DNA of 64,000 nt, from NCBI GenBank assembly GCA_030522415.1, contig CM060127.1, forward strand, positions 16,511,314 to 16,575,313. Direction: 5' to 3'. Below the pieces are notes generated by a model, which searched no databases, had not been told where the DNA came from, and saw only the letters and a program-made list of their open reading frames with translations. This stretch comes from Channallabes apus. Lineage: Eukaryota > Chordata > Actinopteri > Siluriformes > Clariidae. This document shows, piece by piece, positions 1 through 64,000 of this stretch; positions within the stretch are counted from its first letter, which is position 1, and each line of letters begins with the position of its first letter. Made by a program: the position numbers and the translations under genes.

Positions 1-307
1 TTACTGTACATGCTTGCTGTACACACACGTGTTTTACGCACACACGTGGTCACAATGTTATAGTAAACAGTACACACGTGGACGGTTGTTGATTATACCA
101 GTAAGAGACACGCACGATTACCCACAATTCTGCAGCACTAGAGAGAGAAAAACTGTTGGCTCAGTTGCGATCATGTGACGCTCGGCATTAAAACAAGAAG
201 TGCATACGTGATACATGATACTCGGTACTCGTAAACCAAATCAATAGTCAAAATGTATTAATCTTTGCTCGTCTTGCGGAACACTCGCAAACCGCTTTAC
301 TCGCAAT
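1..307 (+). repeat. MITE family copy A, cut by the window edge
   Basis: This is the right-hand part of a dispersed non-coding repeat that recurs at 27,643-28,304 (same orientation) and 33,039-33,615 (inverted). Shared blocks include TTGATTATACCAGTAAGAGA and the terminal block around CTTTGCTCGTCTTG, GGAACACTCGCAAACCG and TTACTCG. Full copies end in CAGTG next to TA, which suggests a Tc1/mariner-type non-autonomous element. The left part lies outside the window. Confidence 0.75.
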
Positions 308-310
308 CTG

Positions 311-863
311 AGGTTTCATTGGGGTTTTAAAAGAAACACATTTGATTGTAGAGCGCTATCACAGTGTTACCTTATCAGAAACAGTTATAGACTAGATCCT
401 ACTGTATTTACATAGCAACTAAAAACCCTAAAAAATACAAAGACAAGCTTGTTGTTAGGAGATTACTAAAGACAGGATATATTAAAATTTAATACCTTTT
501 AAGGGTATAACAAACTGTTCTTGTGGGAATTAAAAGATTTTACGTATATAAACAGGACCAGTTTAAGAAGCGTTGAATACTTAAATATCTATAGAATCTT
601 TGAACACGCCTAGCTCTGTACTCTGTACTGGCTCCTGAACAGTGCTCTAATTCAATTTAGTGCCACTTTAACAGCATTAAAGGGTATAAAACATCACAGG
701 ACAGTTCCAGGAATCAGGTCTTAATAAGATGCTTTCATGTTTATTGTTCTGCTTCTTACCTTTTGGTGAGGTGAATAATCATCCACAGTGCTGTAAGGAA
801 ACAGGAAAAGAGGAAAGACTGATTAGAAAGAGACGAATACATGAAAGAAGATAGTAACCACAC

Positions 864-936
<73 letters not shown>

Positions 937-1499
937 CTTCTGACACAGCTGTCAGACACAGAGACAGACTGAGCTTTTCACAGCTGGTGGTGTGAAGCAC
1001 TGAGTCATCGCACTGCAGCAAAGAGACACCACCCTGAACACGGCAACGAGGAGGCTCGCTCTGAATCCATAAGTCTGTCAGCGGCGTCAGACGTCCCTGC
1101 CTGTCTCCTTCTCTAAACCCTGTATAAAACACCCGAGCTCAGGAAGTGAAGGAGACAATGACTCTCCCTCAGCTGCTTTTTGGATTCGCTTAACACAGCT
1201 TCAGTGTGTGTAACAACACTGACTTTGTCTTTAGTGAACTAATAACAGACTCTGTATCTGACTTGCAGGTACAGAAAACAGTCTTTGTGCACCAACACAA
1301 AGACTGCAAACAGCCTAATAAACTGCCATTTATGCGATCATCGTGAAAGGATGCTTATATCACTTCACCAATTGCATGTTCTTTACCCACTATCATGTAA
1401 ACATTGCTGAAATACAGAATTAAACAAGAAGCTGTTGGCTCTTGTGTTCCTAAAACATTTTATCTGTACAGATCCTTCATGTATTCATTTTCTAACAAT
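311..1499. other. Non-coding stretch, nothing recognised except a CA microsatellite
   Basis: Likely intron or flank of the rapgef5 gene, since the next rapgef5 exons are expected further left. I see no splice-bounded coding block on either strand. Long open frames across 756-1132 are translations of the CA/TG microsatellite at 857-932. One TACTGTA heptamer lies at 400. Confidence 0.5.
857..932. repeat. (CA)n microsatellite
   Basis: About 36 nearly perfect CA units with one CG interruption near the left end. It creates false long open frames on the minus strand. Confidence 0.95.
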
Positions 1500-1524
1500 A
1501 ATCAGATTTTATAAAACTGGTTAT

Positions 1525-1680
1525 TTAATAATTAAAGCCCTTCCTGATGTGATCCTCCCATTTTATCCGGGGTTGGGACCGGCACTGCATCCAATGGTTG
1601 AGGTTTGGGCATTGGCTGGGAATTGAACATGGTCCTAATTCGTGCCAGGTGAGAAACCTACAGTACCACTAATGCCCGCA
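1525..1680 (-). repeat. tRNA-derived SINE-like fragment
   Basis: Read on the minus strand it has a SINE head of the type seen elsewhere in fish, with a TAGTGG box followed by GGTTTCTCACC and a B-box-like GTTCAATTCCC. A TACAGTA heptamer at 1659-1665 falls inside the promoter-like head. The body downstream of the B box is degenerate. Confidence 0.5.
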
Positions 1681-2087
1681 AGTGCAATGTTCATTAACCT
1701 TGTTGCGTGAAAAAATGCATTCCCAAGTTCAGCTGAGATGATCATATGAAGCTTCTGCACTCCTGCTCATTGAATTGATACCTTTTATATATAAAGTTGA
1801 GTAAAGTGTTGATAAGGGTGTATACAGTGTATATATAAGTTTTAGCTTTGTGGCCCTGGAAAACCAAAAGGCTTTGTGGGCAAGACAAGCCTAAGACTAT
1901 TATTTAGTCTTAGTAACGTTGTGCAAGATTACATAAGAGGTTCTTGTGATGGAATGGCTGTTTATAGCTGCTACAATGCACGGAACTCGTCTCAGAGACA
2001 CTCTACAGTACAACATTAAGTCTAATTACAAATGTATGAAAATAAGGCGGTTAAATTCCAGACTCAGTGTTAGTGTAAGGGACTCAC

Positions 2088-2179
2088 TGTCTGCGGCGTA
2101 TTAATTTCTGGAATTCCTTCAGGTCCTTTTCCAGTGTGGGGAACTCGTAGACGTCTTCCAGCACGTAGCGGTACAGTGT
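2088..2179 (-). CDS. rapgef5: rapgef5 internal exon: end of REM domain
   Basis: This is a 92-bp exon with acceptor CTCTACAG and donor GTGAGT. It starts at a codon boundary directly after the exon at 6342-6486. It reads TLYRYVLEDVYEF...LEKDLKEFQKLIRRR and ends with two bases (CA) of a split codon. The human RAPGEF5 protein, as I recall it, has TIYRNVLDDVYEY...LEKELKEFQKIL...RRH at the same place, so the split codon probably encodes the His. The segment is the last helical part of the REM domain, which braces the catalytic CDC25 domain that loads GTP on Rap. The following exons (linker, RA and GEF domains) are outside the window to the left. Confidence 0.85.
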
Positions 2180-8485: not shown

Positions 8486-8869
8486 TATCAAATAAGGATT
8501 ATACTGTATCTACATCTCTATTCGTAAACATAACGAGTTATTATATACTCTTATTTTAATACTCAATATGGAAGAAGACTTTTTATATATAGATTTCTTT
8601 TAATATATTCATATATTCCATATTCACATATTCTGTAATAAAAATATGTAAGGGTACTAATATACTAAAACAACAAAGATTAATTATGAAGGACATTACT
8701 TATGGTGTTAAAAACATTTGATAACGTAGCAATTTATTTAAAATGCAAAAACAATATTTACTGTTTTTGAAACATCCCTGAATTGTTAGTGACCTGTTCA
8801 TAAACAAAAGGACAGAAGTACTGACCATCATCCTGTGCATTAGTGAGAGCAAATACATTTCTAGGACAC

Positions 8870-8965
8870 ACACTATATAATCCAGTGGGGTTTAGGAAAA
8901 GGACGATAAGGCAATTTTTATCCAAATAAAAAAATTTTGTACATAGTGTGAACAAAACAACAGAA
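8870..8965. repeat. Inverted partial copy of the 7,893-7,988 segment
   Basis: The segment from GGACACACACTATATAATCC through AGTGTGAACAAAAC is the reverse complement of 7,893-7,988, with few differences. The two arms are separated by about 880 bp. The common translation (LIVLFLNPTGLYSVCP) is shared because of the repeat and does not show that it is a gene. Confidence 0.8.
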
Positions 8966-9137
8966 GTGCTGAAAGATTGATCTCTCTCTTTCTCTCTCAT
9001 ACACACAGGCATTAACACACGCCTCCTCCATTCCCTAGTGATGAATTTCCATTTTCATCTTTATCATACGTCTTCTCTGTGCTGACACAGCACGGCCCCA
9101 TGAGACAGCCAGCCGAGACCTGTCTCAGCTTTGACCC

Positions 9138-9178
9138 AGAGAGAGAGAGCGAGAGAGAGAGAGCGAGAGAGAGAGAGT
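9138..9178. repeat. GA microsatellite flanking the LINE 3' end
   Basis: An imperfect AGAGAG run with AGCG interruptions. A similar run with the same AGCGAGAGAG interruption sits at the other end of the LINE (14,659-14,682). Confidence 0.9.
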
Positions 9179-9280
9179 TAAATGCTCTTTATTACTAGAG
9201 ATTACGCTTTGTTAATTCACTTGTTTCAACAATTTCATCATATCATGTCACATCACATGGGTACCAAAGAAAAAAATAAA

Positions 9281-12200
9281 CTACAGCAAATGTGAAAACG
9301 ATAACTCTTCTTCAACAACTGAGCACAATGCCCCATTACGACACCATTTCATGTCAAAAGTTATCAAATCCTTTATAGACTTATAAAAACAAAAATCAAT
9401 CAGCACTCGTGATTTCACCAAATTTAAAAACATTGCCACCACGTCTCCACCACGCAGTCCTTCAACCTTATTTTTCCTGCTCATATAAATGGCTAACTTA
9501 GCCTGACCTAAAACAAAATTCAAAAGCTGACATGTAACTTCATTAGATCGAACAAACTTAAAACCAAAGATAAACATTTTCATTGAAAACAATTCATTAA
9601 AGGAGATGAAAATTTTTTCCATAAGTAAAAATAGAGGTTTTAGTCTGTCACATTCCATGAAGGCATGAAAGACGGTTTCTCTTTTTGAACAGAAAGGGCA
9701 ATCAGCAATGACTTCAGGATTAATGACTGAAACAAAAGCATTAACTGCAATGGCGCAGTGAAGAAGTCTCCACTGTATATCTCCTGCCCGTTTAGATAAC
9801 GGTGGCTTATACAGTGACCTCCATTCAGGTTTTACATTTTCTTCTAAACCCAGTACTTTACGCCAAGGCGTGTCAACTTTTTCATTCAGTACTTTTTTGT
9901 TAAAAACTTTAACACATATTTTATAAAAAGCTTTGCCAGTAGCTGTAGACAAGTTTAAACACAAGGGTTTATCAGCATCTAGATAAGGTCCCTTACAACC
10001 CTCCATTTTGGGTAGCAAGGTAAATAAAGGGAAACAATCTTCAGAGTTGGTATCATTTGTTCGTTCATCATTGTCCATCAGGAGATTTTTTTCTTCATCG
10101 CTGACCAGTGTCTTCCAGTTCTGTAACATCTGTTTAACAGTCCGCAAGGACCTGATTTTTAGACAAACGGCCACTTCTTCTGTTTTTTCAAGATCTATCC
10201 CAGCAACACGAATCAAGCGGCCAAAAGTAACAATCTGTGAGTTCATCAACAGTGCATTGAGTCCATGATAGAAGGAATTGTCCTTTGTTAAGTCAAAACG
10301 CGCTCCATTTATTAAAGGCTCTTCCAAAAGCCAGTGGAGAGAAGGTGTTGTCTCACTTCTCTGCAAATCAAATAGGCTCCAAACCTTAAAGAGATTATTA
10401 TAAAACACTGGCAGTCTACTCACATTCAGTTTAAGGGGGTCCATTAAAAACAAGGATTTATCCAACCCCAAACCTGCAACATTATGCAAAATGGAGCATG
10501 TAACAGCCCGCCAACCATTCATTGTGGATCCATACAAAAATCTTTGTAAAAATTGCAAACGGAATGCTGCTATTCTGCTTTTTAGTTGTATTAAACCATG
10601 ACCACCCTCTTCTTTAGGTAAATACAACACATTCTGTGGCACCCAATGCAAGTTATCCCAAAAAAAATTTATTAAGACTCCTTGAATTTCTATCAATAGT
10701 TGTGAGGGAGGATCTAAACAGGCAAGCCTGTGCCAAAGGCTGGAGGCTACTAAATTGTTCACAATTAATATTCTCCCTTTGTATGACATCTTTGGTATTA
10801 ACCATTTCCATTTGTCAAGTCTACCTTTCACTTTATCAGCAACCCCTTCCCAGTTTTTCTGGATGAACATTTCATCTCCCAAATACACACCTAGGTACTT
10901 AAACCCTCTTGTTCCCCAGTTCAAACCATCAGGAAGGCTAGGTTTCCCTTTTAGCCACTGTCCAATTAAAAGTGCTTCACTCTTGCTCCAATTAACTTTT
11001 GCAGATGATAAAGCTTTAAAATCTTCTAAGATTTCCATTAATACTTTGACGTCATTTTGCCCATTAATTAAAACCACCACATCATCAGCATAGGCAGATA
11101 AAATGATATTGTTTTTACAATCAGGAAGATTCAGTCCGCAAACTTTTTCTCTCAATTGTTGTAACAAAGGTTCTATAGCAAGAGAGTATAACATTCCAGA
11201 CAAGGAACAACCTTGTCTTATGCCCCTGTGAACCTTAAAAGGAGTGCATAAGCCACCGTTTATTTTCAGCACACTTTCAACATCACCATAGAGAACTTTC
11301 ACTTTGTCAATAAAATCCTGACAAATTCCAAAAGCTTCTAATGTTCTCCACAAGTAAGGGTGCTCAACCCTATCAAAAGCTTTTTCCTGGTCTAGAGAAA
11401 TAAGTCCAATATTAACACCAAGCAACTTGGAGACATCAAACATATCTCGCATAAGATTAATATTGTCAAAAATAGACCTACCCGGAACACAATAGGTCTG
11501 ATCTGGATGCACCACCTGATCAATTACCTTTGTTAACCTGTTAGCTAGAGCTTTAGAAAGCAGTTTATAGTCGGAGCATAAAAGTGAGACGGGACGCCAG
11601 TTCTTAATTTCTAAAAGGTCTCCTTTTTTGGGAAGAAGAGTGATGACCGCTCTACGGCTACTTACCGGCAACTTGCCTGAGGCCAAACTGTCATTGAGCA
11701 CGTGCAAAAGATCGTCCCCTACCTCTGTCCAAAAGAATTTATAAAATTCAACCGGAAGTCCATCGATTCCAGGGACTTTTCCAGAATCCATGTCTTGTAG
11801 GGCCTTGTACAGCTCATCCAGGCTTAAAGTGCCTGAGAGATCTGCATTGGCCCCCTCTGACATTTGGTTCAGGCCTACAAAGAAAGAATTCTCAGAATCC
11901 CACCCTGCTCTCAACTCATTCTTATACAAGTTTTCATAAAATGTACAAGCTCTTTTACGTATTTCTACGTGACTAGTTAAAATGTCTCCTGTCTCAGAGC
12001 GCAAAATATGCAGAAAACGTTTTTGCCCATTTTTCTTTTCAAGACTAAAAAAATATTTAGATGGTGCATCCATCTGTTCAGTGCTTAAAAAACGGGAACG
12101 AATCAGAGCTCCTTGTGTTTTTAATCCCAGTAGGTCTGCTAGCTGTGTTTTTTTGTTTGAGATCATCTCTGCGTAGTTTTTATTATTTGTGGATTCAACT

Positions 12201-13260
12201 AGACTTTGTAATTTGATTATATCCGTCTCCAAGGCTTTCATCGATTTATTTAACTCTTTGGTAATGTTATAAGTGTACTGTTGACAAAGTTGTTTTATTT
12301 GAACCTTTCCAAAGTCCCACCATTGCTTTAAATCTTGAAACAAATCTTTAGTTTTTCTAAAATCTTCCCAAAAGAACTTAAAGACATCCTTAAAGTCCTT
12401 ATTACACAATAAATTGGTGTTAAAATGCCAATAAGCACTGTGGGGCTTAATTTGACTTAAAACGAAGAAACACAAGATCATGTGATGATCAGAAAAACTG
12501 ACTGGAGAGATAACACAGCTTTTGAAAATGCCCAACTGATGTTTAAAACTATAAAAGCGATCTAATCTTGCAAGAGACAGAAAATTGTCACGAGCATGAG
12601 CCCATGTATATTGTCTCTGTCCGTCATGAAAATGCCTCCAAATATCACATAGATCATTCATGTTTATAACTCTAATAAGGCGTTTACGTGAAAGCATATG
12701 GGGCTCAGTGTGATTTCTGTCTATAGGACTTTCTGTGCAATTAAAGTCGCCGCCTAAGAATAAATATTCTTCTGTACTACAACTTTGTATTGTTGAACTA
12801 AGCGTATCCAAAAACAATACTCTTTCCATTGCCAATGTTGGTGCATAAGCACAGACAAAAATCAGAACATATTTTTCAAAAATTGCTCTTATTTTTAAAA
12901 GCCTTCCTTTCACAATCTCATCAACTTGATATGAAGTTGGACAAAAGTGTTTAGAAAACAAAATCCCCACACCACCACTAAGTGTGGTTTTGTGACTTAC
13001 AGTAGGACAGAAACACCATCCCATTCCTGCATCCAGTCAGCAACATTTGTAGCATCACTGTGTGTCTCTTGAATGAAAGTAACATCTATATTTTTTTGTT
13101 TAATAACTTCAAACAGTTCAGCTCTTTTTCTGCTATTTCTAGCACCATTCACATTAAGTGATGCAACACACACTTCAGTCATACTCATAAATAGAAGTAG
13201 AAGTACAACCAGACTACTATAATTCATTTTTGTTAATTTAAGCTTTTTCACCGCCATCAT
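9281..13260 (-). pseudogene. LINE ORF2: endonuclease-reverse transcriptase, one frameshift
   Basis: ORF2 copies the element into the genome by nicking DNA and reverse-transcribing its RNA. It starts at ATG 13,260 and is open to a stop at 12,998. The next frame is then open from 13,024 to 9281 (1,247 residues). Endonuclease motifs: VASLNVNGARNSRKRAEL, FIQETHSD, GGDFNCTESPIDR, ARLDRFY and SFSDHHM. Reverse-transcriptase motifs: GIDGLPVEFYK, KNWRPVSLLCSDYK, LDQEKAFDRVEH, RGIRQGCSLSGMLY and the catalytic YADDVVVL. A CPFCSKRETVFHAFMEC knuckle lies near the C-terminus. The break is the heptamer at 12,998-13,004, read as TACTGTA on the coding strand. Setting aside its last five bases leaves VLSHKTTLSGGVGI, which fits the family. 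The rest of the frame is intact. Confidence 0.92.
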
Positions 13261-14476
13261 TCAAGTCCATATTAAGTTTGCGCATTATGTTCTTTAACCG
13301 GGTCACTTCTTTATTTAAAAAACAGCCTTCATCCATGAAAGTTTTAGTTTTTTCTACAAACTGTACCACATCTGGGAAGTAATCACTGACTATGACCCCT
13401 CTCTTTTTCTTTATTAACTTAAGGAACAGTTTAATGTCATCTACGTCATAGTTACGGTTAGAAAAGCTACTTTGTGACAGAGTAGCGCTTGAGTCAGATA
13501 GCTCACTGTCACTCTCCGAATCGATCTGATCGGGAACATCTTCAAGATCTACTTTCTTAACCTGCCGAGGATTGTTTACTTTGTCTGATTTCTTCCTTTT
13601 CAGTGGCACCTTAAACACAGTTTGTTCTGCACCAGTTTCATTAGGCCTACTGTCAGCCTCCCGAGTGTCCGCGATGCCAATTTCTACATCCATTTTATCG
13701 CTTGACTCACCTTTGTCTCCCTCGTCTTCGGCATCTTTTGCACTTTGGATTTCCTCCTCCACTGAAACCACTGCACTCTCAGCGCCATGAGTGCCGTCAT
13801 GAGTGCTCACCTGCCCCGCCGCTGACTCCACCTCCGCGGGGTCTTTGGCCGATTGTTCTCCGTCATTAGCTGCGCTTTCCGCGCCAGCCACACGGCCACT
13901 CTTTCCTTGTTTGCCGGGACAAGATCGGACCAAGTGGCCGATTGTTCCACAGCCAAAACATTTGATCTTGTCAGTGGTTATAAAAACCACATAGTCAAAG
14001 TCATCCACTCGGAAATTCAGCGCGAGGTCCAGATCAGCGTCATTGTTTACAATCATGTAAACTGAGCGTCTGAAGGATACAACGTGTTTCAGTAAAGGAG
14101 AAACGCCACCAATTGGAATCTTTTTAATGGAGGAAACCAGTTTTCCGTAGCGAGACAGTGCTTGTACTAAGACTTCATCACTAATAAACGGCGGGACATT
14201 CGAGATGGTGACTCGTTTTGACGGTAATGAAAGTGGTAGAACGGGAGTGAGAACGCCGTCAAGTGCAACTCCTCTCTGAACTAACTCGTTAGCCTTTTCA
14301 ATTGTGCTTAAAAAGATAACGATGGCACTATTCATTCTTGAGGCAGACAGTACATTATCGTGTCCCACAATTTCACCCACAGCTAGACAGCAACTCTCCA
14401 CGCTCACTGCAGACGCCACTTTCACACCGTGACGACGCGTGAGTGAAGTCAAATCCTGCGCACCTGTAAGCGCCAT
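13238..14476 (-). CDS. LINE ORF1: nucleic-acid-binding protein with zinc knuckle
   Basis: A 412-residue intact frame. ORF1 proteins of this class bind the element RNA to form the retrotransposition particle. Residues about 165-185 hold a CX2CX4HX4C knuckle (CFGCGTIGHLVRSC). The N-terminal half resembles an RNA-recognition fold region (KRVTISNVPPFISDEVLVQA, YGKLVSS). The C-terminal half is acidic and low-complexity with a KRKK basic patch. The TAA stop overlaps the start of ORF2, so ORF2 may be translated by reinitiation. No lesion seen. Confidence 0.88.
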   Translation of the reverse strand: MALTGAQDLTSLTRRHGVKVASAVSVESCCLAVGEIVGHDNVLSASRMNSAIVIFLSTIEKANELVQRGVALDGVLTPVLPLSLPSKRVTISNVPPFISDEVLVQALSRYGKLVSSIKKIPIGGVSPLLKHVVSFRRSVYMIVNNDADLDLALNFRVDDFDYVVFITTDKIKCFGCGTIGHLVRSCPGKQGKSGRVAGAESAANDGEQSAKDPAEVESAAGQVSTHDGTHGAESAVVSVEEEIQSAKDAEDEGDKGESSDKMDVEIGIADTREADSRPNETGAEQTVFKVPLKRKKSDKVNNPRQVKKVDLEDVPDQIDSESDSELSDSSATLSQSSFSNRNYDVDDIKLFLKLIKKKRGVIVSDYFPDVVQFVEKTKTFMDEGCFLNKEVTRLKNIMRKLNMDLNDGGEKA

Positions 14477-14658
14477 GTTTCCCCTACACCCAAAAACCCA
14501 CCCCCCCTACAAAACCACAACCCCAAAAAAAGGTATCTAATTTAAGTCTCCACACTATCCAAATTGAATATAGAAAAAGGTTGAGAATAGGGGGGAAGAA
14601 AGAAACTCGCACAAGAGTCACCGCTCACGCAAACGCCCCACTCACTCCCAGCATGCAC

Positions 14659-14915: not shown

Positions 14916-16047
14916 CAGGTCCTTCTCAAAAAATTAGCATATTGTGATAAAGTTCATTATTTTCTGTAAGGTACTGATAAACATTAGACTTTCATATAGT
15001 TTAGATTCATCACAAACAACTGAAGTAGTTCAAGCCTTTTATTGTTTTAATATTGATGATTGTGGCATACATTGTGACATGATTGTGGCATGAAAACCCA
15101 AAATCCCTATCTCAAAAAATTAGCATATCATGAAAAGCTTCTCTAAACGAGCTATTAACCTAATCATCTGAATCAACTAATTAACTCTAAACACCTGCAA
15201 AAGATTCCTGAGGCTTTTAAAAACTCCCAGCCTGGTTCATTACTCAAAACCGCAATCATGGGTAAGACTGCCGACCTGACTGCTGTCCAGAAGGCCATCA
15301 TTGACACCCTCAAGCAAGAGGGTAAGACACAGAAAGAAATTTCTGAACGAATAGCCTGTTCCCAGAGTGCTGTATCAAGGCACCTCAGTGGGAAGTCTGT
15401 GGGAAGGAAAAAGTGTGGCAGAAAACGCTGCACAACGAGAAGAGGTGACCGGGCCCTGAGGAAGATTGTGGAGAAGGACCGATTCCAGACCTTGGGGGAC
15501 CTGCGGAAGCAGTGGACTGAGTCTGGAGTAGAAACATCCAGAGCCACCGTGTACAGGCGTGTGCAGGAAATGGGCTACAGGTTGCAAATTTTGCATGTCA
15601 TTCGGAAATCAAGGTGCCAGAGTCTGGAGGAAGACTGGGGAGAGGGAAATGCCAAAATGCCTGAAGTCCAGTATCAAGTACCCACAGTCAGTGATGGTCT
15701 GGGGTGCCATGTCAGCTGCTGGTGTTGGTCCACTGTGTTTTATCAAGGGCAGGGTCAATGCAGCTAGCTATCAGGAGATTATGGAGCACTTCATGCTTCC
15801 ATCTGCTGAAAAGCTTTATGGAGATGAAGATTAAATTTTTCAGCACGACCTGGCACCTGCTCACATTTTGGGATTTTGGGTTTTCATGAGCTGTATGCCA
15901 CAATCATCAATATTAAAACAATAAAAGGCTTGAACTACTTCAGTTGTGTGTAATGAATCTAAAATATATGAAAGTCTAATGTTTATCAGTACATTACAGA
16001 AAATAATGAACTTTATCACAATATGCAAATTTTTTGAGAAGGACCTG
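14916..16047 (+). mobile_element. Tc1-like transposon with about 190-bp inverted repeats, internally deleted
   Basis: The left terminus is TA then CAGGTCCTTCTCAAAAAATT. The right terminus is its reverse complement, ending GGACCTG at 16,047 close to TA. The terminal repeats extend to about 15,110 and from about 15,870, and an extra AAAAAATTAGCATAT block lies at 15,113. This is a widespread fish Tc1 family. The copy is non-autonomous because its transposase gene is truncated. Confidence 0.9.
15258..15865 (+). pseudogene. Truncated Tc1-family transposase
   Basis: It starts at ATG 15,258 with MGKTADLTAVQKAII and a paired helix-turn-helix DNA-binding region (KEGKTQKEIS-like, QSAVSRHLSGKSVGRKKCGR). 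The frame breaks after about 110 family-like residues (ATVYRRVQEMGYRLQ). A shifted frame then has SVMVWGAMSAAGVGPL and FIKGRVNAASYQEIMEH. The sequence stops in CAGCACGACCTGGCACCTGC (second catalytic Asp region) and jumps straight to the right terminal repeat. The first Asp block and the final Glu block are missing, so no enzyme can be made. Confidence 0.88.
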
Positions 16048-21560: not shown

Positions 21561-21585
21561 ATTGAATAAAGTGCGGCCAACTCAC

Positions 21586-22034
21586 CAGCTTCTTTGCCCT
21601 CCGTTGCCCCCTGGTGCTCGTCCAGCCTCAAGTCACTCAACAGGTGCTCCAGGATCTTATGGGGCGTCCCGGACACCACCACGTACCTGTCGGACACAGC
21701 AGAACATGAGGAATCGGATGGGTACTCGTCCTCAGTGGAGCAGCCCGAGTACAAACTGCTGCTCCTGTCCCTGCTGCTAAACACATCATCGTCTTCGTCG
21801 TCGTCGTCATCAATATAACGGAAGCGAGGGATGTCAAAAGTGCACGGTTTAAAATCGGCACTACAGCTGATACACTCAGACTCTGATCCTCCGTCATCGT
21901 CGTCGTCATCATCATTATCGTTATCATCATCCTCTTCCTGTTGCACGAGTGTCACTGGTTTGAGGTTCTGCATCTCTGTGACACTCCGGGTCATGCCGTC
22001 ATGCTCCAGGGGGAAGGCGGCGGACTCGTCCGAG
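21586..22034 (-). CDS. rapgef5: rapgef5 exon: acidic linker and start of REM domain
   Basis: The minus-strand frame is open from 22,081 to a GTGAGT donor after 21,586. It encodes an acidic stretch (QQEEDDDNDNDDDDDDD), then CTFDIPRFRYI followed by a second acidic run, SSSLYSGCSTEDEYPSDSS, SDRYVVVSGTPHKILEHLL and SDLRLDEHQG. Human RAPGEF5, as I recall it, has TFDVPYFKYIDEEDEDDE then SDRYVVVSGTPEKILEHLL, so identity is firm. SGTPxKILEHLL opens the REM region in this family and in EPAC proteins. The 5' boundary is uncertain. An acceptor before 22,034 (GGAG|C) fits the phase of the exon at 22,521 but has no good pyrimidine tract. The block could instead be a first exon starting at ATG 21,994 (MTRSVTEM). 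Confidence 0.85.
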
Positions 22035-22091
22035 CTCCAGGTACACACTGCTCTGCTCCAGCAGCTCTGGCCCAGTCTTGCTTAACACTAG

Positions 22092-25579: not shown

Positions 25580-25890
25580 CTCAGGGGTGTTCAAGTCATA
25601 CAGTGACTTTTGATTGTATCTGAATAAAAGAACAGTTATCAGACTAAAAACGCCATTTCCGTCTGAAATTCTGGCCTCCTAGGAACTCCAATAATGGACC
25701 AAGCATGTAAAAATGAGGGTAGAAAACAACTATGCGATGTGGCAATATCTTCTAAAGATAAAAGTCTTCTATAAATGTCAATCGGTTTTAACCCTTCGTT
25801 CACAAGAAACCTATTTAAAAGTCCTGGTTTGACTTGAACACCCATTGTATACCGAAGCATGGACATTAGAACTTCTTCTATCAATGTTAA
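25580..25890 (-). mobile_element. Internally deleted mariner-like element
   Basis: The minus strand reads FLVNEGLKPIDIYRRL, which resembles the N-terminal helix-turn-helix of mariner transposases. Soon after it reads HAWSIIGVPRRPEF, matching the C-terminal part found at 61,010-61,200 (WPINGVPGRPAFR). The catalytic middle is deleted. Confidence 0.6.
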
Positions 25891-27600: not shown

Positions 27601-27642
27601 AGTATAATCAAATGCAAGCATAAGGTCCATTTATGGACATTT

Positions 27643-28304: not shown

Positions 28305-28309
28305 TATTT

Positions 28310-29276: not shown

Positions 29277-29278
<2 letters not shown>

Positions 29279-29313: not shown

Positions 29314-29317
<4 letters not shown>

Positions 29318-45313: not shown

Positions 45314-46920
45314 CAGTGGCTTGCAAAAGTATTCGGCCCCCTTGAACTTTTCCACATTTTGTCACATTACAGCCACAAACATGAATCAATTTTATTGGAA
45401 TTCCACGTGAAAGACCAATACAAAGTGGTGTACACGTGAGAAGTGGAACGAAACTCATACATGATTCCAAACATTTTTTACAAATAAATAACTGCAAAGT
45501 GGGGTGTGCGTAATTATTCAGTCCCCTGAGTCAATACTTTGTAGAACCACCTTTTGCTGCAATTACAGCTGCCAGTCTTTTAGGGTATGTCTCTACCAGC
45601 TTTGCACATCTAGAAACTGAAATCCTCGTCCATTCTTCTTTGCAAAACAGCTCCAGCTCAGTCAGATTAGATGGACAGCGTTTGTGAACAGCAGTTTTCA
45701 GATCTTGCCACAGATTCTCGATTGGATTTAGATCTGGACTTTGACTGGGCCATTCTAACACATGGATATGTTTTGTTATAAACCATTCCATTGTTGCCCT
45801 GGCTTTATGTTTAGGGTCGTTGTCCTGCTGGAAGGTGAACCTCCGCCCCAGTCTCAAGTCTTTTGCAGACTCCAAGAGGTTTTCTTCCAAGATTGCCCTG
45901 TATTTGGCTCCATCCATCTTCCCATCAACTCTGACCAGCTTCCCTGTCCCTGCTGAAGAAAAGCACCCCCAGAGCATGATGCTGCCACCACCATATTTGA
46001 CAGTGGGGATGGTGTGTTCAGAGTGATGTGCAGTGTTAGTTTTCCGCCACACATAGCGTTTTGCATTTTGGTCAAAAAGTTCCATTTTGGTCTCATCTGA
46101 CCAGAGCACCTTCTTCCACATGTTTGCTGTGTCCCCCACATGGCTTGTGGCAAACTGCAAACGGGACTTCTTATGGTTTTCTGTTAACAATGGCTTTCTT
46201 CTTGCCACTCTTCCATAAAGGCCAACTTTGTGCAGTGCACGACTAATAGTTGTCCTATGGACAGATTCCCCCACCTGAGCTGTAGATCTCTGCAGCTCGT
46301 CCAGAGTCACCATGGGCCTCTTGGCTGCATTTCTGATCAGCGCTCTCCTTGTTCAGCCTGTGAGTTTGGGTGGACGGCCTTGTCTTGGTAGGTTTACAGT
46401 TGTGCCATACTCGTTCCATTTCTGAATGATCGCTTGAACAGTGGCTCAGTGGGATGTTCAAGGCTTTGGAAATCTTTTTGTAGCCTAAGCCTGCTTTAAA
46501 TTTCTCAATAACTTTATCCCTGACCTGTCTGGTGTATTCTTTGGACTTCGTGGTGTTGTTGCTCCCAATATTCTCTTAGACAACCTCTGAGGCCATCACA
46601 GAGCAGCTGTATTTGTACTGACATTAGATTACACACAGGTGCACTCTATTTAGTCATTAGCACTCATCAGGCAATGTCTATGGGCAACTGACTGCACTCA
46701 GACCAAAGGGGGCTGAATAATAAAGCACACCCCACTTTTCAGTTATTTATTTGTAAAAAATGTTTGGAATCATGTATGATTTTCGTTCCACTTCCCACGT
46801 GTACACCACTTTGTATTGGTCTTTCACGTAGAATTCCAATAAAATTGATTCATGTTTGTGGCTGTAATGTGACAAAATGTGGAAAAGTTCAAGGAGGCCG
46901 AATACTTTTGCAAGCCACTG
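45314..46920 (-). mobile_element. Tc1-like transposon copy 1, complete ends
   Basis: TA|CAGTGGCTTGCAAAAGTATT at the left and the reverse complement ending GCAAGCCACTG|TA at 46,920. Terminal repeats are about 210 bp and the element is 1,607 bp. Its ends CAG...CTG would leave TACAGTA or TACTGTA after excision. The second copy is at 57,761-59,360. Confidence 0.95.
45531..46551 (-). pseudogene. Tc1 transposase, copy 1, broken at the N-terminus
   Basis: A 260-residue frame (46,313-45,531) holds the DD34E catalytic core: WSDETKMELF (first Asp), FQQDNDPKHKA (second Asp) and SPDLNPIENLW (Glu), with 34 residues between the second Asp and the Glu. The N-terminal DNA-binding part is broken. The usual start is ACG instead of ATG at 46,551-46,549. 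One extra base near 46,443 shifts the frame after LNIP. An in-frame TGA replaces the Arg of the GRTRR linker. No active enzyme is expected. Confidence 0.92.
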
Positions 46921-50905: not shown

Positions 50906-52984
50906 TGTGTGCAACTGAAAATACTTAGACACACCTGAAAATACTTACTTACAAAATGGAACACCAATCAGCCAGCTACAAAAACACCTCACTTAAGCCA
51001 TTTTGAGAACTTTGCAAGCATGGAAGCAGGGAGAGCTAGAGGCAGAGGCAGAGGAAGACAGACAGAGAGAGAGAGAGGAGGAAGTGGTCGAAGAGGCCAT
51101 GCAAGGACCATTATTTCTGATGACATAAGAGCAACTTTGGTGGACCATGTCATAAACCATGGCTTGACTATGAGGGAAGCTGGGCAGAGAGTCCACCCTA
51201 ATCTACGCCGTTTCACAGTTTCATCCATAATAAGGACATTCCGACTGGAAAACAGGTATGTCTTCAACTCTATAGTCTACTCAGACTGTATAAAGAGTAT
51301 TTACAATACTGTACCATATCACATGTACTGCATTTCAGGGTGACTAATGCTCCTTTTTGAACAAAAGTAGTAGTTTTGTGAAACATACGATGATAACGTG
51401 TTGAGATGTTTCAGTACTATGTATGGTATACACAGTAAAGTACAGTATATACAGTACTGTAAAAAAGAAGCAAACCAATAACAATTTGAGGTTGCATTTT
51501 TCTACAGAATGGCTAGAAGACCTACAGTACTGGGGGTTGGACGCCAGCGCCTGTTCACACAACAGCAGGAACTTGCCATTGTGAACCTAGTGAGAGCAAA
51601 CAATGCAATCCGTCTCCACCAGCTACAGCAACAAATACTTGAAGATAGATAGGCAGGTATTCAACAACATAAATCGTGTAAGCATTACCACTATCAGACG
51701 CATCCTGGTAAAGCACAACATGACCATGAAGCAACTGTACAGGGTCCCATTTGAGAGGAACAGTGTCAGGGTCAAAGGACTTCAACATGAATATGTACAG
51801 GTAAGTGTTACAGTCCTTTACATTTACAATACAGAATGGGTGCAGTCCAGTAACAGCTGAATATGTACCATTTGATCAGTACCACATATTCGGAAATCTA
51901 CACACGTACCTGTGTGGTGGGGTGGGGTGGTTCTGTATGTGTAGTTGTGTGTTTTGAGTAATGCCATTCACAATATGTATTTTTTGTTGCAGAGAATCTT
52001 GGACATGGATGGAGCTGCTCAGCCTCATGAATTTATTTACATTGACGCGGCTGGATTCAACCTTAGCAAAAGTAGACGACGGGGACGTAATATACTTGGT
52101 CAAAGGGCGATTGTGCACGCCATAAGACTCCGAGGGCTACTGCACCATCATTCCAAACTGGGTCCATATAATGCGCAACACATAATCACATTTCTACTGT
52201 AGATGCACTTCATGATGCAGTTGTACAGGACAGACCAGAGCAGCCCAGGTTTGTTGTTGTCTGGGATAATGTCAGTTTCCATTGGGCTGCTATCGTCCGG
52301 AACTGGTTCACCAACCATGATCAATTTGAAGTTGTGTAATTGCCCCCTTACTCGCCGTTTCTCAACCCTATAGAAGAGTTTTTTTCTGCTTGGAGATGGC
52401 GCGTATATGACCGCCAACCACATGCCCGCATGCGTCTACTGCACGCAATAGAACAGACCTGCGGAGACATGGAGGTAAGGTCAATCCATGGATGGATTCG
52501 GCACACAAGGGGATATTTTCCCTGATGCTTAGCAAGAGAAGACATTGCTTGTGATGTTGATGAGATCCTGTGGCCAGACCCCAACAGACGGCAGGATCCA
52601 TAAGTCCACTTATGCACAATTGTGTTTTTCTGTGTTTACAGTAGTGTATTATTTGTTTTATTGTTGCTTTAACTAAAGTACACGACTGTAATGTACAGTA
52701 TTTAGTATTTCATTTTTTGGGTGTTGTGAAAACGTGCCTTCTGTGGAACTGAATAAAAACAGTGCAAACAAAAGCCTGCCGTGTTTTATATAAAGTAGAA
52801 TAGTGTGTTGCTGCTGATTTGTAAGTGTATTCATACTGTATGATGCAAGTGGGTTTCATTTTGTCATTAGAGCGACATTTTGACAAAGGATTGTTAGGTT
52901 TTGATAGCAGAGTTTCAATTTGACATAGATGTGAATGGTTTATTTCCCAGTGTTGTGTCTTATTTGCTTGTGTGTAGAGTTTTG
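50906..52984 (+). mobile_element. IS630/Tc1-superfamily element inserted inside the LINE
   Basis: It fills the gap in the LINE endonuclease frame and carries an intron-containing transposase gene. GAGTT sits at both borders (50,900s and 52,980s) and may be a target duplication or chance. I could not define clear terminal inverted repeats. Confidence 0.6.
51020..52603 (+). pseudogene. Spliced DD35E-type transposase, decayed
   Basis: Three exons fit together in phase. 51,020-51,255 is an Arg-Gly-rich start (MEAGRARGRGRGR) and helix-turn-helix. 51,508-51,800 has RRPTVLGVGRQRLFTQQQ and ITTIRRILVKHNMTMKQLYR. 51,993-52,603 is the DDE core. Introns are GTATGT...TTCTACAG and GTAAGT...TTGTTGCAG. Catalytic residues: YIDAAGFNL, VVWDNVSFH and SPFLNPIEEF, with 35 residues between the second Asp and the Glu. 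Lesions: a 4-bp GATA duplication at about 51,644, a TACTGTA insertion at 52,195-52,201, TAA at 52,337 and TGA at 52,523. This family belongs to the IS630/Tc1/mariner superfamily. Confidence 0.8.
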
Positions 52985-53225
52985 ACATGATGAGCCAAGT
53001 TTTGCAAAACGTGTTCAAGCAACGGGCAAAAACTGTAATACTGGGGGACTTCAATATTCATACTGTACTGTATATGCTGTCCAACAAATTATTTTTCAAA
53101 GGACTTTGTAAATCTTATTGATTCTGTTGGCCTTCAGCAAATGGTTAATGGTCCTATACATATTTATGGTCACACGTTGGACTTGATCGTGTCACTTGGT
53201 TTATCAGTCAGTGACATTATCATAG

Positions 53226-54219: not shown

Positions 54220-54640
54220 TCTGGGACTGTGAGACTAGTAAGAATGCAGGGAAAAAACTGATGCAGGGAAAAAAAAGCTATCCTACAGGAGGTGAAAACC
54301 TTCTCCAGTGTGATAAGGCTGCCAGACTGGGGAGATGGTCTACATTCCCAAAATTGTGAGGGGGGGGGGGTGAAAAAACATAGAACGACCTGAAGCATAC
54401 CACCAAGAAAACGCAGGACTGGCTCCAGAACAACACTCTGTGAAAGTGAGAGTGCCAGCGAGAGTCTGGATCTGACCCCAATAGAGCATCTCTGGAGAGA
54501 TCTGAAAATGGCTGTTCCCATCTAACCCGGATGAACTTGGACGATTCTGCCAAGAAGAATGGAAGAACCTTCCAAAAGAAAGGTATGCCAAGCTTGTAGC
54601 ATCATCCACAAACAGACCTGAGGCTGCCATGTAGATTTAC
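54220..54640 (+). pseudogene. Right half of the Tc1-like relic
   Basis: Resumes with GGGACTGTGAGACTAGTAAG and continues to ATAGAGCATCTCTGGAGAGA (PIEHLWRDLK, the Glu motif) and AAGAATGGAAGAACCTTCC, CCAAGCTTGTAGCATCATCC (family EEW...AKLVAS). Together with 50,330-50,812 it is one ancient element split by the LINE. Confidence 0.8.
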
Positions 54641-54813
54641 TGTACAGTAAGTTAAAAACCCAGGATACTGTTTAGCTACTTAAACAGGTGTTCAACAGGT
54701 GTTAAAATACACATGGCAATACACAAACACACACAAATTTAAAAAAGTTAATGTGACAAAGACAACGTGAGGAAGAAAGCACAGAAATCAGATTTTCCCA
54801 ACGTATTCTGTAC

Positions 54814-56165: not shown

Positions 56166-57615
56166 GTCAACTCTTATGTGTTTCTGTGGAATGAAATTCA
56201 TGGCAGAAATGTGCAATACTCGGAAAGTTAGCCAGCCTCTTTCAGCACGTTATGCATTTTTATATTATTTTTGAACTATTTTTAGGTATTCTATTACGCT
56301 CTAATATTACAGCTGCAAAATCTGGTGTTAAGAGTGTAAGCAGTTTCATCCACAGAGAAGACTTTTGTTCAAATTATTCTTTAGCTAACTGCCTCGACAA
56401 GAAGATTTATACAGAATTTCAATGAGTGTGTCTTCTACTCCTGCTGAATACACACCTTTCTAGCCTATAAATTACAGCCGTTTATGTCACCGCTCAGGAG
56501 CGAAACAATCAGCGCTTAACTGAACATGATTTATTGTATAATTTATCCATGTTATTAATCTGTTCAGAAATCAATACAGACATTTGCTATGGGAAATTTA
56601 CACTAAGCAGCATTTTCATGCTCAACTCATCAGTCCTGTCTCACTGGTTCGCTGCTGGATGTACTGTACTGTACACTGTATGCCAAGAAAAAAGGATAAA
56701 TGTAAAACCATTAGGTTTCACTTATCTTGAATACAGACAAATTTCTTTCTAAATCATTTATGTCCAATCAGACCTCCTGAGTTTGTGTAAAATTGCATAA
56801 AAAGAATTTTGACTGCTGTAAATGGTGCTTGATCAACTTCAAATCGTATAACAGAGTTATTGTGGTTTTAGACAAGGATTATTAGATTCAGCATTAAAAT
56901 TCTTATTTGTTTTTCCTCCACGCAAATTTAAACATTTTCATCTCTCCGTAAGCGTTATCTTTATGGCATTTGTGGGTGTCATTAAATGTAAATCAGCTGT
57001 GCTTGTGAAACACACATGCAAAATTATACCTAACTGGCATTTAGCAACATTTGAAAAAGGTGAAGAGAAGCATTAACGAATTTTTATGGATTTTTGCATT
57101 TGATGATAACATCTATGTGAAACTTTGCTAAAAGAAAAACGAGGCCCATTGAGTCTGCTTTTTTCCCCTCAATCACCGATCAGGTTGAAAGACGTGAGAA
57201 AAACCAACAGAGGACAAAATAAATGCAGGTAGGAAGATTGATGACATTTCTAATTAGAGATATTTCAAAGTCAAAAAGCTTCCTTCTTTTCATCATTAGA
57301 TGAGCTAGGCTAACTATTAAGAAATAAATCTAATCATTGTTTAAAGATTTTTTTTTTATTGAATTAAATAAACATATGACAGTATGGGTTTTAACAAATA
57401 AATGTCAGTTTTTCAAATAGGAATTACAACCTTGGCCGAACTGGTTGGTTAATTAAGTTTTGAGGAATAATTCTCCAGACTTTTTCCACTCTCAGTTTTT
57501 ACTTTTTTTTCATTCCCTGTACCTGACCAGTTTCAGATTAATGTTTGTTTGTTAAGCCACACAGTGACTTATGAGCCACTTAAGCATAAACATCTAACTT
57601 AAGAACTTAAGGCAA

Positions 57616-57760: not shown

Positions 57761-59360
57761 TTGCAAAAGTATTCGGCCCCATTGAACTTTTCCACATTTT
57801 GTCACATTACAGCCACAAACATGAATCAATTTTATTGGAATTCCATGTGAGAGACCAATACAAAGTGGTGTACACGTGAGAAGTGAAACGAAAATCATAC
57901 ATGATTCCAAACATTTTTTATAAATAAATAACTGCAAAGTGGGGTGTGCGTAATTATTCAGCCCCCTGAGTCAATACTTTGTAGAACCACCTTTTGCTGC
58001 AATTACAGCTGCCAGTCTTTTAGGGTATGTCTCTACCAGCTTTGCACATCTAGAGACTGAAATCGTTGCCCATTCTTCTTTGCAAAACAGCTCCAGCTCA
58101 GTCAGATTAGATGGACAGCGTTTGTGAACAGCAGTTTTCAGATCTTGCCACAGATTCTCGATTGGATTTAGATCTGGACTTTGACTGGGCCATTCTAACA
58201 CATGGATATGTTTTGTTTTAAACCATTCCATTGTTGCCCTGGCTTTATGTTTAGGGTCGTTGTCCTGCTGGAAGGTGAACCTCCACCCCAGTCTCAAGTC
58301 TTTTGCAGACTCCAAGAGGTTTTCTTCCAAGATTGCCCTGTATTTGGCTCCATCCATCTTCCCATCAACTCTGACCAGCTTCCCTGTCCCTGCTGAAGAG
58401 AAGCACCCCCAGAGCATGATGCTGCCACCACCATATTTGACAGTGGGGATGGTGTGTTCAGAGTGATGTGCAGTGTTAGTTTTCCACCACACATAGCGTT
58501 TTGCATTTTGGTCAAAAAGTTCCATTTTGGTCTCATCTGACCAGAGCACCTTCTTCCACATGTTTGCTGTGTCCCCCACATGGCTTGTGGCAAACTGCAA
58601 ACAGGACTTCTTATGGTTTTCTGTTAACAATGGCTTTCTTCTTGCCACTCTTCCATAAATGCCAACTTTGTACGGTGCACGACTAATAGTTGTCCTATGG
58701 ACAGATTCCACCACCTGAGCTGTAGATCTCTGCAGCTCGTCCAGAGTCACCATGGGCCTCTTGGCTGCATTTCTGATCAGCGCTCTCCTTGTTCGGCCTG
58801 TGAGTTTAGGTGGACGGCCTTGTCTTGGTAGGTTTACAGTTGTGCCATACTCCTTCCATTTCTGAATGATCGCTTGAACAGTGGCTCAGTGGGATGTTCA
58901 AGGCTTTGGAAATCATTTTGTAGCCTAAGCCTGCTTTAAATTTCTCAGTAACTTTATCCCTGACCTGTCTGGTGTGTTCTTTGGACTTCATGGTGTTGTT
59001 GCTCCCAATATTCTCTTAGACAACCTCTGAGGCCATCACAGAGCAGCTGTATTTGTACTGACATTAGATTACACACAGGTGCACTCTATTTAGTCATTAG
59101 CACTCATCAGGCAATGTCTATGGGCAACTGACTGCACTCAGACCAAAGTGGGCTGAATAATTACGCACACCCCACTTTTCAGTTATTTATTTGGAAAAAA
59201 TGTTTGGAATCATGTATGATTTTCGTTCCACTTCTCACGTGTACACCACTTTGTATTGGTCTTTCACGTGGAATTCCAATGAAATTGATTCATGTTTGTG
59301 GCTGTAATGTGACAAAATGTGGAAAAGTTCAAGGGGGCCGAATACTTTTGCAAGCCATTG
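57761..59360 (-). mobile_element. Tc1-like transposon copy 2, left tip lost
   Basis: Starts within the terminal repeat at TTGCAAAAGTATTCGGCCCC (the first seven bases of the tip are missing or replaced) and ends TTTGCAAGCCATTG at 59,360. Very similar to copy 1 along its length. The right-tip change CACTG to CATTG and the lost left tip suggest it can no longer move. Confidence 0.93.
57971..58991 (-). pseudogene. Tc1 transposase, copy 2, one frameshift
   Basis: ATG at 58,991 opens MKSKEHTRQVRDKV...LGYKMISKALNIP (helix-turn-helix). One extra base near 58,883 then shifts the frame. The downstream frame runs unbroken to 57,971 with WSDETKMELF, FQQDNDPKHKA and SPDLNPIENLW (DD34E). Unlike copy 1 it keeps its start codon and the GRTRR linker, so the single extra base is the main lesion. 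The same extra base is present in copy 1. Confidence 0.92.
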
Positions 59361-59901: not shown

Positions 59902-60940
59902 CTGGGGAAGAAAAGAAAAAAAAAGTGTTGTATAATACACAAGGGCAATGGTAACACACACACACATATACTGTACACAGGATTAACGCCTCAGCTCTGT
60001 ACTGCCCCCTCCTGACCTGTGCACACCACTCTCAGCATGACAAACCTTAACAAGCCATTTGTCTCCATTTCAGCATTTTGCACACACGGTCTTGACTCAA
60101 GCATCCATGAAAATACCAGAACAAACTGAACATGTCCCACTGAGAATTTGCTACACGAGGATAAAGTGCCTATAACACCAAGCTGTTACAAGAGGACAAA
60201 ACACATATAAGGAAAAAGAAATAAAGCAGACAGGAGAGGTCCTGAGAGGCTCATATAACAGGTAGCAAAATAACAAGTAGAATGTTTCAGACATGACCAA
60301 ATTTTCTCAGCAACACCTCAGCTAAAATGGTCCAATAACCATATATGGCTTGGACATGATATTTGGAACAAGCACTGGGTCGAATACTGTACAGTAGGTC
60401 AACAACACCCTTTATGCTTGAAACAGAAGGGAACAAAGGCCAATCAGAAAAGAAAAAGCATAAGGGTTTGTGAGAGGGTTTTAATGATCAGATCGTTTTA
60501 TTCTCTACACTACATTTGATCTCGCTAGTGTCAGTTGTTTCACTTTTATTTCTCCTGAAGATGCACAGAGACAAATATGATATTAAGAATTTCTTTGGCC
60601 GAAGAAACAACATATTTGTATTTACTGCTTATGCAATCTAAACTCATGGTGTGGTCAGTACAGTTACATCTAGGTTTTCATTTACACATTTGGCAATTTT
60701 AAAGGAATTTCAAGAAGAAATTCAATCTGCAAATAAATCTGTTTATATCAATTGATGTCATTTAAAAATGATGCAAAATGATCACAGGGAAAATCTCAAC
60801 AAGTCCCTATATGATAATTAGTTTTATTTTGTTATTATTATTACCCTTTTTTTTGTTAATTATCTTTATCAAGTGCTTGATTTTCCCATCTTGCAAAACT
60901 GTTCTCCTCTTATAGTATATATGAAAATGTAATTTTATGA
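59902..60940. other. Non-coding stretch
   Basis: No exon or known repeat recognised. A paired heptamer TACTGTACAGTA lies at 60,385-60,396. Confidence 0.4.
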
Positions 60941-61269: not shown

Positions 61270-62520
61270 GACATTTACATATTACACAAAAACATTTACA
61301 CCATTCAAATAATGAAGAAGAGTCTAAAGGCTAAGAGTCTAAGTCACAGGAGGCTAATAGTAATAACTAGAAATAAAAGAAACAGCACAGAATATTGTTG
61401 ATTGTTCATGTTTGAATGTCTTTGGGTCTTATGAATGCTAAAATCTTTAAAGTGATTAAAGCTACCATTTGCTTTTTAAAGAAACTTGACATCCCTGTGT
61501 GTGCACACAGTGTTTTTTAGCACTCACACCCACATCCACCCACCCGTCGACCGACCCACACCCACACAACTTTCAACAGTTCTGGCCAAACTGGTAAGAG
61601 TAAAGCGATGAGCAATATGCAAACTGGATGCAAAAGATGTCAAGCAGTTGGAAGGCTGTGTGTGTGACTGGAATATCCAACCAGCTCATTTGGAAAGAAA
61701 ACAGAAGTTCACTGAAGGAAAATGAAGAAATTATTTACATACAAGCTGCAAAAAAAAAAGAAGCAACCCAAGGAAAACTCTCCGTCTCCTCCACGGCCCC
61801 AATTGTGATTTATTTAAATTCTCCAGTGTGCACTTTTTATAACTCTGTCAGCTCACAGAGATGAAGTGAGCAGAATCCAATCCAACGGGTCTGATTGACA
61901 GTTAGTGTCAGGTCGGGGAAGGAGGCCCGCATTGGACGACTGATGTCACACGGTCCGCCACGCGTCACGTTCGATTCCGTCAGGGTGAAATTGGAGTCGC
62001 TGGCGCATCCTGTCTTCCCTCAACCCCATCAAAATTCCCTGCTCTCATTCGACGTGTCTATTCCCGGCTGGCAGTGAAGCCCGCGGACACAGATGTGCTG
62101 TCAGGACACAATGACGAAGATCAAATCAACCGAGCCGTGCGTCACTTTGCCTCATAATTTCAGATAAAAATACATGGCCGGGCAGTACTGTATATGTGAC
62201 GTTCAGGCAATACCGGATCTCTAGAGCGGAATTAAAAATAGACTTTGCAGCAGTGCAGGTAGGATTCCTGGACTGGAGATATTACCAGTAACGTGATATT
62301 ATTACATATACATACTGTAACCTGATGAATTTCAGATTTTCATCAGACTGCAGCTGTCACGAGGACCCCTGCATTTTCACTTCATCAGTCTTGTAGTCAA
62401 CTGAAAAAAGATGTGATCTCTGACCGCCAGATGTTTATTCTAACAGCTGTGGCTCGAATTTGCATCTCAGGAGACAAGCCTTGTTCACCAACTGAGTGCC
62501 TACACACTAACACACTCACA
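61270..62520. other. Non-coding stretch with a GC-richer block
   Basis: 61,890-62,160 is CpG-containing and lacks repeat signatures. It could be a conserved non-coding element or an old regulatory region. Nothing else is recognised. Confidence 0.35.
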
Positions 62521-62549
62521 GTGTGTAAAAGAAAGACTAGACTAAAGAA

Positions 62550-63170
62550 AGACTAAATGCAGATTTTGAAAGAAAGGAAGAGAGGAAGACAGTGGGGAAG
62601 ACAGGCAAAGGACTGAGATGCAGAAAAAGAGGATAGTGAAAGAGCAGACAGAGACCTATAAAGATCATGAAGGATAGTCAGAGACAAGATAGAGGTAACA
62701 AGACATGAGAGACAAACAAGCTCTGAAGAGAGACAGGGAAAGAAAGACTTTAAGACATCAAAAGACACAGTGACAGAAAGGGCAGAAAGGTGAAAGACGA
62801 TGAGTCAGAGAGAGAGCAAAAAAAAAGAGACGGCGAGAAAGATAATGAGAGCAAGAAAGATTAGGTAGAGACAGGGAAAGAAAATGAAAGACGAGATAAA
62901 AATGAAATGAAAGAAAGAGAACGACGAGAGATACAGTAATGAGACAATCTGACAGACAGCATTAAAAATGAGACACAATTAAGGAGACAGCAAGAAAGAT
63001 TAGAGACTGTAGAGATTAGACACAATGGAAGAGAAATATAAAAGACAATGTGACGGGCACTGAGAAAGACAGCGAAAAAGATATGACAAAGACCAAGTCA
63101 GAAAAAAGCGAAAGAGAAAAAACCAAAGAGACGCGAGAAACCATGTGAGGGAGACAAACAAACTGAAACA
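62550..63170. repeat. Purine-rich degenerate GAAAGA/GAGACA array
   Basis: The plus strand is dominated by A and G (GAAAGA, AGAGAC, GACAGAG words) for about 600 bp without an exact unit. Confidence 0.8.
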
Positions 63171-63179
63171 AATTTTCCG

Positions 63180-63436
63180 TTTCTTTTTTATCTATTTACA
63201 AAAATATTTCCCTCCTTCCCTCTCGGTCTCTCTAAATACCTCCCATCCTGATTTTCACTTCGTCGTTTCTACTCCTGCTACCTCAACTGTCTCTCTCTGC
63301 CTCTACACTGCTCTGTCTCTCACTCACTTTTTACCTCTATCTGCCCTTTCTCTCTAAATCTTTTACACACCCCATTCTCTCTAATAACCTTTCTGTATAA
63401 CTCTTTCACCTTTTCCTATTTCTTCTCTCTTGACAC

Positions 63437-63511
<75 letters not shown>

Positions 63512-63830
63512 CACTCTCGCTCCTCTCTGCCTGTACTCTGTCTATACTTTTGAATTTCCTTCAGGAACAATAAAGTATCTATCTATTTATCTCCCTCTCT
63601 CTCCTGCTACCTGCTGCCACCCCCCACCCTGCCTCCACACACACACACGCGCGCGCACGCACACACACCTACCTCTACATATAGCTCTCTTGCTCCTTCT
63701 CTCTACTCTCTCTAAACACACACACACCTCACCCACCCACTCTCCATACATCATCCTCCCTCCAGAAATACCCCTCTCTCTCTCTCTCTCTCTCTCTTTT
63801 CGCAGACTGATATTTTTGACATTTTTAGTT
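63180..63830. repeat. Pyrimidine-rich region with TA, CA and CT microsatellites
   Basis: CT-rich sequence follows the purine array. It contains a TA-to-CA compound run (63,439-63,509), a CA/CG run (63,637-63,668), a CT run (63,775-63,797) and a LINE-like tail GAACAATAAAGTATCTATCT at 63,564. Confidence 0.85.
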
Positions 63831-63936
63831 CAGCTAGTGGTAGCATTGCATGTTTTAACACAACCCACAGGACTGGAGTTCTCATTAAAAATACATACAG
63901 AGACATAAGCACTTTCACAATACATACATTATTTAC

Positions 63937-64000
63937 AGTGCTGCGCAAAAATCTTAGGCACATAAATGCAGAAGAGCCAGAATGTTTAAAAAGAAATAAA
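63937..64000 (+). mobile_element. Left end of a Tc1-like element, cut by the window edge
   Basis: TTACAGTGCTGCGCAAAAAT then CTTAGGCAC matches a widespread fish Tc1-type terminus (CAGTGCTGTGCAAAAGTCTT). Nearly all of the element lies outside. Confidence 0.6.

Follow-up and report, generated by a model that had tools for sequence, protein, structure and literature searches.

In a 64,000-nucleotide stretch of contig CM060127.1 of the catfish Channallabes apus (hereafter the window, positions being counted from its first letter), the heptamers TACTGTA and TACAGTA, written together as TACWGTA where W is A or T, occur 102 times. Most of these heptamers (positions 1-64,000, unstranded) are best read as canonical footprints left by the excision of CAG...CTG-ended transposons of the Tc1/Sleeping Beauty type, a reading to which we assign a probability of about 0.93. 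An element of this type would insert at a TA and duplicate it; a transposase would later excise the element, leaving CAG overhangs from both of its ends; and end joining would then yield TA-CAG-TA or TA-CTG-TA, which amounts to a net gain of 5 bp at the original TA. The A:A mismatch between the overhangs resolves to either letter. In the available portions of the published reports, Sleeping Beauty (SB) excision followed by end-joining repair leaves a CAG footprint (PMC8151067), and TACAGTA and TACTGTA are given as the consensus footprints of SB (PMC4378557). A preliminary description of this DNA had already seen in the heptamers a record of excision, and this view is supported by their flank preference, by insertions at TA, by nested pairs and by their scarcity in resident elements.

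The 102 heptamers, comprising 53 TACTGTA and 49 TACAGTA on the plus strand, extend from 2-8 to 62,932-62,938. The preliminary description had counted about 100 over this same span and had predicted about 12, and both figures hold: base composition gives an expectation of 12.8, and the mean over 100 shuffles that preserve dinucleotides is 10.4 (standard deviation 3.2, maximum 18). No word of equal composition is equally enriched. Of the strand-collapsed heptamers of this composition, 420 are represented in the window, and TACWGTA is the most abundant of them. ACTGTAT (54) and ACAGTAT (47), which come second and third, are TACWGTA read in a shifted register; the fourth is CTGAATA (32). When all TA-N3-TA words are considered, a large excess is observed for CAG/CTG only (102 vs 14.0 expected), the next word being TATAATA (28 vs 19.6). 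The centre base of TACNGTA, read on the plus strand, is A in 49, T in 53, C in 2 and G in 1, hence A or T in 102 of 105. Other footprint lengths are without clear excess (TACTA/TAGTA, 88 vs 81; TACGTA, 10 vs 5.3), although a minor class of the latter is possible, as AYA (Y being C or T) is found in 3 of 18 TACGTA flanks. Repair therefore looks mostly canonical, with the reservation that larger deletions would escape such a word-count test. About 2% of all TAs in the window would be scarred, and the density reaches 1.6 heptamers per kb. In mouse, with a genome of 2.7 Gb, it is about 0.11 per kb. This latter figure derives from the more than 300,000 places at which one or the other of the two words occurs in the mouse genome, according to the accessible part of the report (PMC4378557).

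The bases beside a footprint would be the former neighbours of the TA target, and they are biased. In 202 flanks of 101 heptamers (the heptamer at the window edge being excluded), compared with all TAs, A is more frequent at position -3 (43% vs 32%, chi-square 12.4), C or T at position -2 (65% vs 53%, chi-square 15.2) and A at position -1 (40% vs 32%), where T is depleted (15% vs 32%; chi-square 28.1 for this position). The bias is limited to these three positions, chi-square values being 1.3 to 4.2 at -4 to -8. The trinucleotide AYA is present in 35 of the 202 flanks (17.3%), 16 on one side of the heptamer and 19 on the other. When random TAs are drawn 20,000 times from non-simple sequence, the average is 8.9 AYA and the highest value 22, so that no draw reaches 35; when the same filter is applied to the heptamers too, AYA is found in 33 of 194 flanks, vs 20 of 514 for all other TA-N3-TA words. 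This bias resembles the palindromic preference for ATATATAT that ZB, SB and Bari are reported to have in the portion of PMC7913693 that was available. The ATATATAT-like preference is a property of the heptamers as a set, not of each site.

The state before insertion was reconstructed from protein relatives, not from orthologous DNA, using tblastn on the unaltered window. The clearest case lies in a long interspersed nuclear element (LINE) with long open reading frames (ORFs; 9,281-14,506, minus strand), whose ORF2 (9,281-13,036) contains RVT_1 and endonuclease domains. From the 548 relatives of ORF2 that were found, 120 were taken, including proteins of Triplophysa, Coilia, Danio, Prochilodus and Ictalurus; 91 of these match 12,800-13,300, and 86 of the 91 do so in two frames. 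The heptamer at 12,998-13,004 (minus strand) is an exact 5-bp insertion at a TA, which shifts the frame in the endonuclease part: the window has 5 bp more than 83 of the 85 testable relatives and 2 bp more than the other 2. The relatives are contiguous across a leucine-serine junction, at which the window carries 5 more bases after TA. At a second place, an older LINE endonuclease fragment, the double footprint TACTGTACTGTA (53,061-53,072, plus strand; heptamers 53,061 and 53,066) is an exact 10-bp insertion at one TA compared with both testable relatives (P0121 and P0125), which is what two successive insertions would give. The heptamer at 51,523-51,529, in exon 2 of an IS630/Tc1-like transposase, corresponds to 6 additional bp compared with 7 of 8 testable relatives and to 3 compared with the last one; it could represent 5 bp plus one independent base. 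Altogether, among the eight heptamers judged testable, three are accounted for by exact insertions, one by an insertion of 6 bp and four by none. Two further heptamers, 44,731 and 52,694, each showed a difference of 0 with a single relative and, given their low scores, were discounted as spurious; with them, the proportion becomes 4 of 10.

Some heptamers are also nested. Six pairs share one TA, three in the same orientation and three in mixed orientation, vs 2.3 pairs predicted by random-TA insertion (analytic value 2.26; Poisson P of at least six, 0.03). Apart from the double footprint just described, these are TACAGTACAGTA at 20,078-20,089 and TACTGTACTGTA at 56,662-56,673, both in the same orientation, and, in mixed orientation, TACTGTACAGTA at 54,638-54,649 and again at 60,385-60,396, and TACAGTACTGTA at 51,450-51,461.

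Heptamers are, by contrast with the rest of the window, scarce in the elements that still reside there. The LINE stretch (8,509-14,600) contains 1 heptamer vs 11.1 predicted from the rate in the remaining DNA, and none is present in two Tc1 copies nor in a further CAG-ended element (over 14,919-16,045), in agreement with the counts given for the Tc1 copies and the LINE in the preliminary description. The four resident elements together contain 1 heptamer vs 16.5 expected, the background rate excluding a heptamer-free stretch (24,908-31,422) discussed below; it must be held against this comparison that its stretches were picked after looking.

Which elements could have left these footprints? 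A Tc1-like element at 45,314-46,920 (minus strand) begins with CAG, ends with CTG and has TA on both flanks; it had been described as complete with such ends, which we confirm, and it is a member of a candidate source family. A second Tc1 copy, at 57,761-59,360 (minus strand), is 97.75% identical to it over 1,600 bp and carries HTH_Tnp_Tc3_2 and DDE_3 domains, with both termini damaged: the first 7 bases of the left end are missing and the right end is changed. This copy may have survived because its damaged termini could prevent excision. A further CAG...CTG-ended element, at 14,916-16,047 (plus strand), is preceded by TA and followed by TG, and its match to a Tc3-type transposase is weak (28.3 bits, under the curated cut-off of 31.5). 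Two short Tc1 fragments are also present in the window. Elements of the resident kind could thus be the source of the footprints, but the family responsible cannot be read from a footprint. Elements other than the resident ones that target TA and have CAG-type ends, such as ZB-like elements, pogo/Passer or lost families, might have been the makers, which would be compatible with an origin by excision. The window contains CAG-ended elements of at least two kinds, between which a footprint does not discriminate; however, as far as the available portions of the reports go, the footprints of ZB are 0-3 bp long (PMC7913693) and those of Passer 0-4 bp (PMC9976928), and such other lengths are without clear excess here. 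We consider such makers rather unlikely.

A different possibility is that the heptamer belongs to the consensus of a repeat family and was multiplied by copying, without excision at these sites. Four heptamers located in a single intron of the IS630/Tc1-like transposase, without 5 additional bp compared with relatives, would fit this explanation, as would the heptamer 31,505, inside a minisatellite, and the heptamer 31,423, beside it; moreover, families that are single-copy in the window yet repeated in the genome would go unrecognised. However, the 25-bp flanks of the heptamers look unrelated to one another. When 150-bp flanks were compared with the window (E value 1e-4, low-complexity sequence masked, a minimum of 6 aligned bases per side), only 2 of the 102 heptamers, again 31,423 and 31,505, aligned to another site, with 3 alignments in all. 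AYA flanks and exact 5-bp insertions would, furthermore, not be predicted by copying, which we regard as improbable for the heptamers in general.

The two last explanations can hardly be retained. Slippage or another mutational hotspot producing 5-bp CAGTA/CTGTA units would account for tandem units such as TACAGTACAGTA, but CAG and CTG are combined in three of the six tandem pairs, which is not expected from one slipping unit, and the bias at -3 to -1 matches transposase targets. Selection for a binding site, e.g., for a protein or as a microRNA-101-type seed match, would explain the strong over-representation of a single word, but appears just as implausible, as both strands are alike, the heptamers also lie in LINE and transposon remains, one is a frame-breaking insertion in a LINE, and their flanks are AYA-rich.

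Several observations weigh against attributing the heptamers to excision, or at least against attributing all of them to it. About 10 of the 102 are expected by chance, leaving about 91 beyond chance. The AYA contrast shrinks when all TAs, including those of simple sequence, serve as the reference (17.3% vs 6.5%), and AYA is found on both sides at 1 of 101 sites and on neither side at 67. Nesting is modestly above expectation, and one of the six pairs, TACAGTACTGTA, lies in the transposase intron, where its length is equal to that of relatives. The insertion test covers 8 of the 102 heptamers, the other 92 having given no value besides the 2 set aside: as a set, the heptamers show the footprint features that were tested, but, taken singly, few are testable.

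The four intron heptamers speak against the excision reading. The IS630/Tc1-like transposase appears to be intron-bearing (51,256-51,508), as relatives join both exons directly. At 51,307 and 51,441 (51,307-51,447), no testable relative shows 5 bp less than the window: for the former, the difference is 0 in 5 of 10 relatives and +3, -3, +9, -13 and +18 in the other five, and for the latter it is 0 in 4 of 5 and +15 in 1. The difference is likewise 0 at 51,450 (3 of 3 relatives) and at 51,455 (1 of 1). All these alignments (51,307-51,455) are weaker, as they run through an intron that was translated in protein predictions. The four heptamers could have been inherited with the IS630/Tc1-like element, be older than it, or be due to chance. 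The heptamer at 31,505-31,511 (plus strand), in a 48-bp minisatellite, differs from a copy by substitution, without any 5-bp gap; it is therefore probably not a footprint. The proposal that the heptamer arose by insertion at TA and not by substitution thus stands at 12,998 and 53,061/53,066, and at 51,523 as a 6-bp insertion, and is not supported at the four intron heptamers and at 31,505.

A last point on the same side is the stretch without heptamers at 24,908-31,422, which nothing observed in it accounts for. Over 6.5 kb and 411 TAs, the rate in the remaining DNA would predict 11.5 heptamers, and the simulated P of a gap this long is 0.005. Its TA density, 63 per kb, falls among those of other measured stretches (46-87 per kb). 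No exon was recognised by eye in its frames of at least 50 amino acids and its composition profile, and three of its frames gave no Pfam match. Possible reasons are that its DNA is regulatory and under selection, or that a large insertion took place recently.

The heptamers also give a rough indication of age. Words that differ from TACWGTA by a single substitution number 269 (standard deviation about 15), which is 42 to 52 above the footprint-free background, and AYA is found in 32 of 512 of their flanks (6.2%) vs 4.4-4.7% in the background, a share weakly consistent with decayed footprints numbering a few tens. With about 91 heptamers beyond chance still intact, these decayed neighbours would correspond, very roughly, to 5 to 7% change per site, which is more than the 2.25% that separates the two Tc1 copies. 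The events recorded would have occurred in the germline and become fixed.

Some other features of the window deserve mention. A minus-strand frame at 21,449-22,081 weakly matches Rap guanine nucleotide exchange factor 4 (E value 0.038) and is a possible host exon. It is free of heptamers; the earlier statement that no heptamer falls in host exons is borne out for this candidate, the only one covered. The frame at 13,238-14,506, without Pfam match, is presumably ORF1 of the LINE. The region 31,376-32,081 is rich in minisatellites with GAATACT-like units, and TACTGAATA is present in 9 copies in the window vs 1.0 expected. One repeat has three related copies (1-239, 28,060-28,294 and 33,059-33,352), which are 82-91% alike in the reported pieces. 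Rfam at gathering thresholds gave no match, and no related DNA was confirmed when viral contigs were scanned with the IS630-like and Tc1 proteins and genome contigs with the LINE protein.

The history of transposons is mostly read from the copies that stayed. Here, about 91 footprints beyond chance face 3 recognised CAG-ended elements in 64 kb, that is, about 30 footprints for each, a value to be taken as an upper bound, as old copies are unmasked and the window contains two short fragments of Tc1 elements besides. We are inclined to think that cut-and-paste excision has been far commoner than retention in this lineage, in which case departed Tc1 elements would be a major source of 5-bp insertions and the genome would hold a readable transposition clock and a record of germline repair that copy counts miss. 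The rest of the genome may be similar to the window. If one word indeed counts departed copies, past cut-and-paste activity would be measurable from sequence alone, through the number of footprints per TA, the target preference, the outcome of repair (CAG vs CTG, canonical or not) and the excision/retention ratio. Short insertions that disrupt reading frames, like the one in the LINE described here, would moreover stem to a notable extent from transposon excision.

Among the matches listed, no title or abstract beginning announces a natural genome-wide excess of the TACWGTA footprint; the footprints themselves are already known, and it is a natural record at such density that was not found among these matches. 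The closest known system is the SB footprint, which has the same seven letters, the same TA duplication and the same kind of target preference. In the available portions of the literature, it is known from engineered mobilisation in tumours and cells, whereas here it reaches a density of 1.6 per kb in natural DNA. Fish Tc1-like elements (SB, ZB and kin) are comparable through the resident CAG...CTG-ended elements at TA and through the Tc3-type and DDE_3 domains of the second copy; the literature, as far as it was accessible, describes resident copies, whereas the window would hold the record of departed ones. Finally, footprints of Stowaway miniature inverted-repeat transposable elements in grasses (PMC1925063, available in part) have likewise made excision traces serve as historical evidence. 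Those traces appear to have been found at loci of known elements, whereas here the evidence is a word-level excess across unrelated flanks.

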